In this document: positions 12,527 to 59,178 of the stretch, one piece after another
How positions within the stretch are numbered: the stretch's first letter is position 1
How the letters are laid out: every line of letters starts with the position of its first letter
Assembly: GCF_000376845.1 (NCBI RefSeq)
Contig: NZ_AQXY01000026.1
Coordinates: forward strand, 124,001-188,000
Length of the DNA stretch: 64,000 nucleotides
Direction: 5' to 3'
Source of the DNA: Thioalkalivibrio sp. ALE14
GTDB lineage: Bacteria; Pseudomonadota; Gammaproteobacteria; Ectothiorhodospirales; Ectothiorhodospiraceae
The notes under the pieces: generated by a model
Database searches by the model: none
Told to the model about the DNA's origin: nothing
The model's input: the letters and a program-made list of their open reading frames with translations, nothing else
Translations under genes and position numbers: made by a program

Positions 12527-12568
12527 CCGCGTTCCCCCTTGGCTCAGTTCGGGTCGGCCGCATCGCCC

Positions 12569-12852
12569 AGGGAAACACTGCTTCATGTATACGCTCGCGC
12601 TCGAGTCGCTTTTGCGTGCGAACAAGGCGCGGTGACTGCCGTGCAGTCATTCTGCACAAGGGAACCGCAACGCTGTGCGCGCGCAAAAGCGGCCGAGCCC
12701 CTGCATTGAATGGTTTGTGGGGTTGGCACCCCAGGTTCCCCGATACGGCGTTGCGCCGCTTGCGGGTAGAACCACTACCCGCCGCACGACGCGCCTTGTC
12801 TCGAAGAACCTGGGGTGCCAACGCGAGCGTGTACATGAATCAGTGTTTCCCT
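12569..12852 (+). repeat. 284-bp structured repeat, copy 1
   Basis: This element aligns without gaps to 55194-55477 (reverse strand) at about 85% identity (43 differences). Its ends are inverted repeats of about 31 bp (29 matches) beginning AGGGAAACACTG. Inside, a first arm contains CGCTTTTGCG paired with CGCAAAAGCG and a nested hairpin with stem GTGCAG (12640-12656). A second arm has a 21-bp-scale stem (12724-12744 with 12811-12831) and a nested GCGGGTAG hairpin with loop AACCA. Differences from copy 2 keep the pairing. The element sits at the 3' end of the TerB-like gene and supplies its stop codon. Neither strand carries a convincing gene. A mobile, non-autonomous origin is inferred. Confidence 0.9.
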
Positions 12853-13301
12853 AGGACCTCGTGCTTGGTCCGGATGAAGGTGGCGTGCGGCACGTAGAGC
12901 AGGTCCGCGAGGTGCCGGATGACCGCCTCCTGACGCTTGTGCAGGTCGCGGTTGGCCCAGGCGGCGCGCCACAGGGCGCGCAGGATGTCGGCCTTCTGCT
13001 CGGCATTGAAGGCCGCATTGACCTCGCGCACCATCGGGTGGATGGAGATCAGCGCGTCGCTCTCCTCCTGTGCGATCTCCAGCAGCGCGTCGGCGGTGTC
13101 GCCGTCGAGCCGGAACAGTTCGATCAGGCTGGCGCGTACCGATTCGAGCTCCTCCGCGTGCAGCTCGAAGTCGGCGCGGCAGACCTCCATGATCAGGGCC
13201 GCGGCGGCGCGCTGCAGGCGCTGTTCGGGATCGCCCTCGGCGCGATCGCTGCGTTCGGCGCCCAGCAGGCGCTGCCAGTGGCTGCGTAGTTGTTCAATCA
13301 C
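12840..13301 (-). CDS. TerB-like protein with repeat-altered C terminus
   Basis: A 153-residue all-helical protein of the TerB (tellurite resistance B-like) superfamily, with LIMEVCRADFELHAEELESVRASLIELF (about 35-62) and a second half ending in YVPHATFIRTKHEVLG. The activity of stand-alone TerB proteins is unknown. The start is GTG at 13301, giving the normal MIEQLRSHWQ-type N terminus. The last two residues and the stop lie inside repeat copy 1. Without the 284-bp repeat the frame would continue EVLGDAADPN and stop, so the insertion exchanged six C-terminal residues for two and probably left a working protein. It is divergent from the QueC-like gene. Confidence 0.75.
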   Translation of the reverse strand: MIEQLRSHWQRLLGAERSDRAEGDPEQRLQRAAAALIMEVCRADFELHAEELESVRASLIELFRLDGDTADALLEIAQEESDALISIHPMVREVNAAFNAEQKADILRALWRAAWANRDLHKRQEAVIRHLADLLYVPHATFIRTKHEVLGKH

Positions 13302-55117: not shown

Positions 55118-55764
55118 CTAGGGCCAGAGGATCAGCAGCCAGACGAGGGTCGCGTTGGCAAGGCCCAGCAGCACGGCGGCCGATCCCATGTCCAAGGGAG
55201 ACGCTGATTTAATCGCACGTCCGCGTTGGTGCCCCCTGTTTCCCGAGACAAGGCGTGTCGTGCAGCGGGTAGTGGTTCTACCCGCAAGCGGCGCAACGCA
55301 GGATCGGGGAACAGGGGGCACCAACCCCACAATCCATTGAAAGCAGGGGCTCGGCCGCTTTTGCGTGGGAACGGCGTTGCGGTTCCCTTGTGCAGAATGA
55401 CTGCACGGCGGTCACCGCGCCTTGTTCGCACGCAAAAGCGACTCGAGCGCGGACGTGCGATTAAATCAGCGTCTCCCTTGGCACGCGCGGCCAGCTTGTG
55501 GCGTTCCGGCCCGAACCGGTCCATGGTGGCCTCGATCCCGGAGTTGAGGACCTCGATAATCAGGATCAGGAACAGGCTGCCGAGCAGCAACGCGCGTTCC
55601 ACTCCGGTATTGCCAACCACCAGCGACAGTGGCGCCAGGATGACCACCAGGATCAGTTCCTGACGAAAGGCCTCCTCGTGGCGAAAGGTGGCGCGCAGGC
55701 CTTTCCAGGAGTACCCAAAGGCCCGCAGGATGCGGGTGATGCCGGTAGCGCCGCCGTTGGCCAT
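55118..55764 (-). pseudogene. dgkA: Diacylglycerol kinase gene interrupted by the 284-bp repeat
   Basis: The 5' part (55764-55478) encodes MANGGATGITRILRAFGYSWKG and on to NSGIEATMDRFGPERHKLAARAK, the body of DgkA including the Glu-rich active-site helix. The 3' part (55193-55118) encodes DMGSAAVLLGLANATLVWLLILWP, the last membrane helix. Between them lies a 284-bp insert, repeat copy 2. Removing exactly 284 bp gives one 120-residue frame of normal DgkA length with the conserved RAKDMGSAAV junction intact. As it stands, the insert shifts the frame, replaces the last helix and adds a foreign tail, so the kinase is probably inactive. Confidence 0.92.
55194..55477 (-). repeat. 284-bp structured repeat, copy 2 (in dgkA)
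   Basis: Same element as 12569-12852, in opposite orientation in the window and in the same direction as dgkA. The terminal inverted repeats are perfect over 34 bp when the flanking CC/GG are counted (55192-55225 with 55448-55481). The inner long stem pairs 55225-55245 with 55305-55325. Loop and small-hairpin sequences (GTGCAG stem, GCGGGTAG stem with AACCA loop) are the same as in copy 1, while stem sequences differ with pairing kept. No target duplication of three or more bases is seen. Insertion is exact with respect to the dgkA frame. Confidence 0.92.
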
Positions 55765-58812: not shown

Positions 58813-59178
58813 TCAGACGCGCACGATTTCGGGCTTCAGTGACCAGGAGACCATCAATAGCGCTTCCTTTTCGCGCTGACCGACCCCGTGTTCGTCCAGG
58901 GCCTAGACGATGTCGTCGAGTACCGCGACGAATTCCTCCTCGCTGATGTTCATGCCGCGATGGGTGGTGAGCATGTCGCGCCCGCTGTACGCCTGCGGAC
59001 CGCCGGTCCCGTTGCAGATGAACTCCGTGACGAGCCGGATCACGTTGTCGCGATCACTGTCGACGTAGCGATTGCGGATCGCCGCGTTCTGTGTGTGCAA
59101 GGGAAACACTGATTCATATACGCGTTCGCGGATACGCGGCTCGCCGCCCAGGCGTTCGTAGAGATTGGGTTCCGTCAT
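58813..59178 (-). pseudogene. Truncated haemoglobin gene with in-frame stop and repeat footprint
   Basis: The frame from ATG 59178 encodes a group 1 truncated haemoglobin: MTEPNLYERLGGEPRIR, later RLVTEFICNGTGGPQAYSGRDM and THRGMNISEEEFVAVLDDIV. An in-frame TAG (58903-58905) ends it at 91 residues, but the same frame continues ALDEHGVGQREKEALLM to a natural stop at 58813, the conserved globin C terminus. Codons for residues 17-26 (RVYESVFPL) come from DNA that matches the end of the 284-bp repeat at 28 of 31 positions, replacing the usual helix A/B sequence. Either change could harm folding, so it is called a probable pseudogene. Confidence 0.75.
59099..59130 (+). repeat. Solo end of the 284-bp repeat
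   Basis: The sequence from 59100 (AGGGAAACACTGATTCAT, then ATACGCGTTCGCG) matches the inner-reading end of repeat copy 1 (12852 back to 12822) at 28 of 31 bases, the first 18 being identical. No partner end lies within the gene, and none of the inner element is present. It is inside the truncated haemoglobin frame and keeps it open. Confidence 0.82.

Follow-up and report, generated by a model that had tools for sequence, protein, structure and literature searches.

Several families of bacterial repeats and RNAs are comparable to the element described here. Two sources treat the bacterial MITEs NEMIS, ERIC, RUP, and Bcr1 (PMC3733652) and QMITE2 (PMC10969869), and the former also links the GTAG- and CGTC-tagged REP/REPIN repeats to RAYTs and places GTAG REPs in two Thioalkalivibrio strains. 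Moreover, a 2024 survey of ncRNAs in 50 genomes, for which a Thioalkalivibrio genome was searched, counts 250 mobile/repeat sequence candidates, one example being MRSC-65-2, a single long stem with a UYCCGG repeat (PMC11109978). The same survey describes the Soda Lake RNA (smtA motif, HRC-65-1), which exceeds 350 nt, was first found between smtA and purH, and is classed as a high-ranking RNA candidate and not as a repeat (PMC11109978).

In this context, we analyzed a 284-bp repeat present in two copies in a window of Thioalkalivibrio sp. ALE14 DNA (the window being the whole stretch of 64,000 nucleotides). We consider it probable, at roughly 0.6, that this repeat is a MITE mobilised by an IS5-family transposase, with arms made from each other and a core selected as a folded strand. 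The initial annotation had proposed a mobile structured element, and this proposal is supported by target duplications, empty sites, IS ends, and the fold. Selection on the fold and within-copy correction of the arms had been offered as alternatives; both seem to be active, in different parts of the element, the terminal stem through arm copying and the inner cores through selection on one folded strand.

Copies, ends, and target sites

The first copy (positions 12569-12852, + strand; 284 bp including AG/CT) has A-type arms; the element proper, GGAAAC..GTTTCC, runs from 12571 to 12850 (+), with the left and right arms of the terminal stem at 12571-12601 and 12820-12850 (both +). It lies between the 4-bp flanks CCAG (12567-12570, +) and CTAG (12851-12854, +), the latter being one base off the left duplicate. 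Inside are core module B, CAAGGCGC-hairpin-GCAACGC (12620-12676, +), a short middle hairpin, CCCC..GGGG (12698-12722, +), short variants of which read CCCCTTCGGGG in other copies, and core module C, which is inverted (12745-12801, − strand). The second copy, with B-type arms, lies within a dgkA gene after RAK (55195-55478, −) and holds module B at 55371-55427 (−) and the inverted module C at 55246-55302 (+). Against the covariance model R1 (57 positions, nine seeds, window-type cores among them), modules B and C score 65.2 and 69.9 bits in the first copy and 70.1 and 64.9 bits in the second. Furthermore, a solitary end of the same repeat family is located at 59101-59131 (+), for which end-motif scans found no second end; similar solitary ends directly precede apparent start codons at two other loci (L078 and L082).

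As had been claimed, a gap-free alignment of the two copies matches at 241 of 284 positions; the second copy had been placed at 55194-55477, one base off, a range that aligns at only 82 of 284. When the 43 differences are placed on the minimum-energy fold of copy 1, 13 compensated pairs (nine terminal and four inner) account for 26 of them, in agreement with the earlier count, and ten further pairs are altered on a single side. The four inner pairs (12727/12817, 12728/12816, 12733/12811, and 12734/12810) lie in the inner long stem, the arms of which had been drawn a few bases off. Both copies fold beyond chance: compared with 200 dinucleotide shuffles per copy, z is −16.7 and −17.8.

In Thioalkalivibrio, the 284-bp repeat is a non-autonomous element with a high copy number. 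At least 41 near-full-length matches were detected in this genome (40 of the 76 first-look candidates being scored), and its end motif occurs 65 + 63 times with up to two mismatches, against 1 + 1 for the reversed control. Among 40 genomes searched, 13 contained matches, all of them among the 25 Thioalkalivibrio genomes (this one included), and none of the 15 genomes of other genera did; the 284-bp query had no blastn match at E 0.01 in plasmids and phages. From 237 blast hits, 17 were skipped (end missing, truncated, or off length) and 220 copies were kept, of which 158, from Thioalkalivibrio loci, are distinct. The length between ends varies from 262 to 311, with clusters near 266, 280, 295, and 310 (74 distinct copies), which reflects small inserts located at corresponding places in the two halves.

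Some individual copies deserve mention. At L066 (G000:C31:320454-321037), two elements with different arm types stand head to tail with one CTAG in common, as if one had inserted into the other's flank. The copy at G000:C31:253297-253583, which is the second copy in L012 and L068, is divergent (69% identity over its match), its core hairpin being swapped with pairing kept (TGCAG/CTGCA vs. TGTAG/CTACA) and its outer arm ends being of differing type. At L080:2003-2080, the element match ends after 64 bases and unrelated sequence follows, perhaps another insertion.

The ends of the element recur in autonomous IS. In this genome, an IS with the same ends (L076) has its left end at the first base of the contig and its right end at 1200, and its 321-aa protein is an IS5-family transposase (NF033581, 322.8 bits, cutoff 140) with the domains PF01609 and PF05598; in G022, a 1220-bp IS copy (L175) has the same ends, TAAG on both sides, and a DDE transposase. 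Over their first 17-18 bases, the A-type arms (copy 1; GGAAACACTGATYAATG in most) are similar to the left end of L076 and the B-type arms (copy 2; GGAGACGCTGATTTAATC) to its right end. Indeed, the repeat shows what is looked for in an IS5-derived MITE, namely ends common to an autonomous IS of the same genome and genus, a short target duplication, and empty sites. An internal-deletion derivative would have the left IS end on one side and the right IS end on the other, whereas 141 of the 158 distinct copies have arms of the same type. The initial annotation had singled out ends that vary from copy to copy but agree within a copy; this is explained in part by the two arm types, one resembling the left and the other the right end of the IS5-family element. 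As for the possibility of a known IS-derived MITE with fixed ends, the ends proved to be IS-derived but not fixed.

The element runs GGRRAC..GTYYCC with 4-bp flanks, which are identical in 63 and unequal in 95 of the 158 distinct copies, the non-palindromic TCAA, CTTG, and CTAA being among the identical pairs. When the joined flanks of 25 sites were searched against 25 Thioalkalivibrio genomes (the scoring covering 12 candidates in each), an aligned empty site was found in congeners for 20 sites. The site of copy 1, CCAG/CTAG when filled, is empty with CCAG in G011 and G001 and with CGAG in G002; that of copy 2 in dgkA, CAAG/CTTG when filled, is empty with CAAG in G004, G003, L142, and L144 and with GAAG in G024 and G015. 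The congener G004 has an uninterrupted dgkA gene, and elsewhere in the ALE14 genome there is a second, stop-free dgkA match.

Fifteen of the 20 aligned empty sites were usable, the other five (L044, L047, the second L085 copy, L086, and L089) being excluded as gapped, weak, or ambiguous at the junction. In a hand count over these 15 sites, in which a base common to both flanks but absent from the empty site was taken as a lineage difference, pairing showed 13 gains and no losses at the inner two flank positions and three gains and six losses at the outer two. By the same kind of count, a duplication-free model in which AG/CT is carried along performs about as well as simple duplication. Unequal flanks had also been considered as proof of arm copying into the target duplicate; this argument was weakened, because a CTAG target preference and the carried AG/CT explain much of the pattern. 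In the right flank of the L038 copy, a 48-base stretch is repeated at many places in several congeners and possibly belongs to another mobile element.

Covariation in the terminal stem

Among the 158 distinct copies, arm types were AA in 101, BB in 40, AB or BA in two, and other in 15, and the terminal stem was 97.8% paired. Double changes were counted in 504 cells, against a shuffled mean of 145 (maximum 176 in 200 shuffles) and at most 47 when the stem was slid. The alignment pair 18-271 is AT in 82 copies, CG in 22, GC in 22, and TA in 15; on a FastTree tree of interior columns it changed at least 36 times and the A/B type seven times, counts that are high-side estimates because the interior tree is blurred by exchange between copies. 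In fact, copies that occupy the same site in different strains have interiors of unequal length (L015 vs. L105; L098, L229, and L270; L020 vs. L251), which suggests that interiors are exchanged between dispersed copies.

Mismatches in this stem amount to 183 G·T and 104 A·C cells over 36 pairs, with 66 of the 183 G·T cells at two positions, 25-264 (25 to 7 A·C) and 27-262 (41 to 4). The rare mismatch types (up to two copies) account for 16 G·T and 21 A·C cells, so that recent changes give no sign of selection on a one-strand fold. Pairing extends into the flanking duplicate, where pair 4-285 is GC in 131, AT in 20, GT in five, and AC in two copies. Since a single mismatch in such a stem should be cheap, selection would hardly purge it, whereas arm-to-arm copying does, and for the covariation of the terminal stem such copying seems a better fit than selection on an RNA. 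In 13 groups of orthologous copies the mismatches are retained, with no sign of arm copying in place; consequently, it must be either movement-linked or slow, and it is probably tied to movement.

Distribution and conservation of the core module

The element contains two inverted copies of a 57-nt core, both halves holding ACAAGGCGCG..hairpin..CGCAACGC in opposite orientation. Among the matches listed in a strict-pattern scan, the same core is present in a Candidatus Competibacteraceae MAG, a Chromatiaceae MAG, and a MAG labelled Bpl_4, where it sits in elements with other inverted termini. The strict pattern matched only 2 of 369 genomes and had no match in IMG/VR; as it was too narrow, it was replaced by a looser pattern and by the R1 model. 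At E 0.01 per genome, R1 matched 101 of the 369 sampled Gammaproteobacteria genomes and 78 of 271 genera, with 15 candidates scored per genome and a few of the 101 genomes possibly matching by chance. Both window copies carry an R1-matching convergent core pair between inverted termini, the features by which we define this CAAGGCG-core superfamily.

The loose pattern, CAAGGCGCN{34,39}GCAACGC, was present in 125 of the 369 genomes, against about 29 for the reversed control (hand count), single matches including chance hits in coding sequence. At least five matches were counted by hand in 42 of the 369 genomes, with up to 100 per genome (two per element being possible), while the control never exceeded two. 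Across 150 genomes sampled from the phylum, the only family outside the class with high counts was f192 (five genomes, 12 to 52 matches); other families outside the class had at most three matches and the control at most two. Furthermore, one core-bearing element was identified on an Azotobacter plasmid.

An inverted repeat of at least 13/14 surrounds the core in 26 of 32 loci, being inner or doubtful in three of these (L341, L343, and L352), and six loci have none. With two exact CAAGGCG motifs, the distance between inverted termini is 266-289 bp (11 loci) or 374 bp (L357), and with one exact motif the span is 159-172 bp in six loci and 214-290 bp in six others. Many termini of core-bearing elements adjoin CTAG, TTAG, or TTAA. 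The core order is + then − in 9 of 9 two-core loci outside Thioalkalivibrio (L334 and L337 being near-identical, and the weaker core sometimes reaching only E 0.0025), and it is the same in both window copies.

Regarding known RNA families, no Rfam family reached the gathering threshold in the 64-kb window; the element and three other core-bearing elements gave sub-threshold matches only, mostly to miRNA families, and in 20 other core loci tRNA genes alone passed the threshold. The M23 match of the L334 core was rejected, as it scores 27.7 bits against a threshold of 41.2, touches one core, pairs a stem outside the core, and is absent from the other elements. No description of the core was found in the literature searched.

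In an alignment of 61 distinct core matches, fitted to the model and including Thioalkalivibrio copies, 92.8% of cells pair, double changes fill 146 cells against 43.7 in shuffles and at most 33 when slid, and the covariation score is 0.495 against 0.156. Nine pairs show a double change, a number reached by 14 of 500 shuffles. G·U and A·C cells in this alignment number 28 and three, or 17 and three without the doubtful pair 23-66. Moreover, the first three pairs after CAAGGCGC include 23 G·U and two A·C distinct genome-position-types (p 2e-5), counted in 82 cores from 28 genomes that were picked by eye, kinship being ignored. The conserved foot, CAAGGCG..GCAACGC, retains a CAA bulge, and many core stems have G·A pairs and what we read as a GCA/AA loop; as perfect palindromes would erase bulge, G·A pairs, and loop, these features of the core seem to be maintained. 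The core covaries, and on one strand G·U far outnumbers A·C; the core is therefore probably maintained as a folded single strand, and selection in the sense CAAGG..GCAACGC is supported statistically. RNA is more likely than ssDNA as the folded unit. Some middle hairpins end in TTCG or GAAA, loops typical of RNA, which is suggestive in favor of RNA; G·T wobble is tolerated in ssDNA too.

Possible explanations and related systems

In the reading that we prefer, an IS5-family transposase would recognise the element ends and make the 4-bp target duplications. As their patterns suggest, each arm would repeatedly serve to make the other, probably through templated copying while a moving copy passes through a hairpin or single-stranded stage, and each copy would thereby become a near-perfect palindrome whatever its end sequence. 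The arms enclose a conserved cargo of two convergent structured cores (CAAGGCGC-stem with loops-hairpin-GCAACGC), which belong to a widespread superfamily found in elements whose termini are of many kinds. As the inverted pair gives either element strand one sense core, the cargo could work in either insertion orientation. The core would most likely bind a host RNA-binding or RNA-processing factor, which might limit the damage done by the element or help its persistence; our preferred role would be that of a protein-binding RNA module protecting or regulating the transcripts that receive insertions. More tentatively, and short of calling it probable, a structured module that is nameless in the libraries searched, most likely RNA, may have colonised many different transposon ends in Gammaproteobacteria and in another family of the phylum. 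It would be a passenger, either selfish or accommodated by the host, that switches transposases and is duplicated in inverted order, each insertion thus exposing a sense copy, while the arms of its carrier are rewritten from each other at each move.

It seems rather unlikely that the folded unit is ssDNA, with the core serving a replication or recombination protein as its site while the element moves. In favor of this, arm copying in itself points to a hairpin or ssDNA intermediate, the cores lie on both strands in convergent order, and ssDNA would also accommodate the wobble pairs; however, RNA-typical loops close some middle hairpins, and the core travels with many transposon ends and is thus independent of any single transposase. 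An ordinary IS5-derived MITE family of at least two subfamilies, with the core as old filler, appears unlikely: such a family would share its ends with the resident IS and have 4-bp duplications, two main arm types, and a high copy number, all as found here, but the same core recurs in differently ended elements of many genera and retains its foot, bulge, and one-strand wobble bias, which filler would not.

We regard as quite unlikely that all covariation, including that of the terminal stem, results from selection on a folded, repeated structured ncRNA. Double changes do exceed the shuffle maxima in the terminal stem (504 vs. 176), in stem B (23 vs. 9), and in stem C (183 vs. 67), the fold z is about −17, and in the terminal stem G·T exceeds A·C (183 vs. 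104 over the 36 pairs). Nevertheless, much of that excess sits at 25-264 and 27-262, the rare mismatches (16 G·T vs. 21 A·C) do not share it, and a stem of about 30 bp should tolerate one mismatch at little cost, yet pair 18-271 uses all four Watson-Crick types with few intermediates. In addition, pairing reaches the flanking duplicate at 4-285, which target preference can explain in part, and stem B slid by +1 gives 31 double-change cells, above the 23 of the real stem. Finally, an intron-like or bypassed insert that keeps interrupted genes functional, as might be imagined for copy 2, is barely credible: excising the insert with one 4-mer restores the dgkA frame of the congeners, but a clean target duplication explains this, no Rfam intron family matches, and the idea was dropped once the second stop-free dgkA match was found in this genome.

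Should the core prove to be a functional folded RNA or ssDNA, it would represent a conserved module that is absent from Rfam 15 and that roughly one in four of the sampled Gammaproteobacteria (101 of 369) contain, with up to 100 pattern matches per genome and on many different transposon ends, and the strong folding of many bacterial MITEs would become a testable question. The terminal stem and the core separate two sources of covariation, and compensated changes are not in themselves a sign of RNA selection when they occur in palindromic repeats; a strand test, comparing G·U with A·C, can tell arm copying from RNA selection.

Compared with described systems, the element resembles the Soda Lake RNA in being a large covarying structure in Thioalkalivibrio (PMC11109978). 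Like the repeat candidates of the same survey, it is a covarying repeat with dozens of copies per genome; the UYCCGG repeat of MRSC-65-2 has no match on either strand of the two window copies, and the element or its core could be among the other repeat candidates (PMC11109978). With REP/REPIN sequences it has in common high-copy hairpins and inverted dimers, but its core foot lacks GTAG/CGTC in the core alignment, and the element is larger, with IS ends and 4-bp duplications. The element also resembles bacterial MITEs in being short and non-coding, with terminal inverted repeats, many copies, a stable fold, IS-type ends, and target duplication. Unlike them, it has a four-arm fold with two convergent conserved cores, its arms change as matched pairs, and its core is common to differently ended elements.
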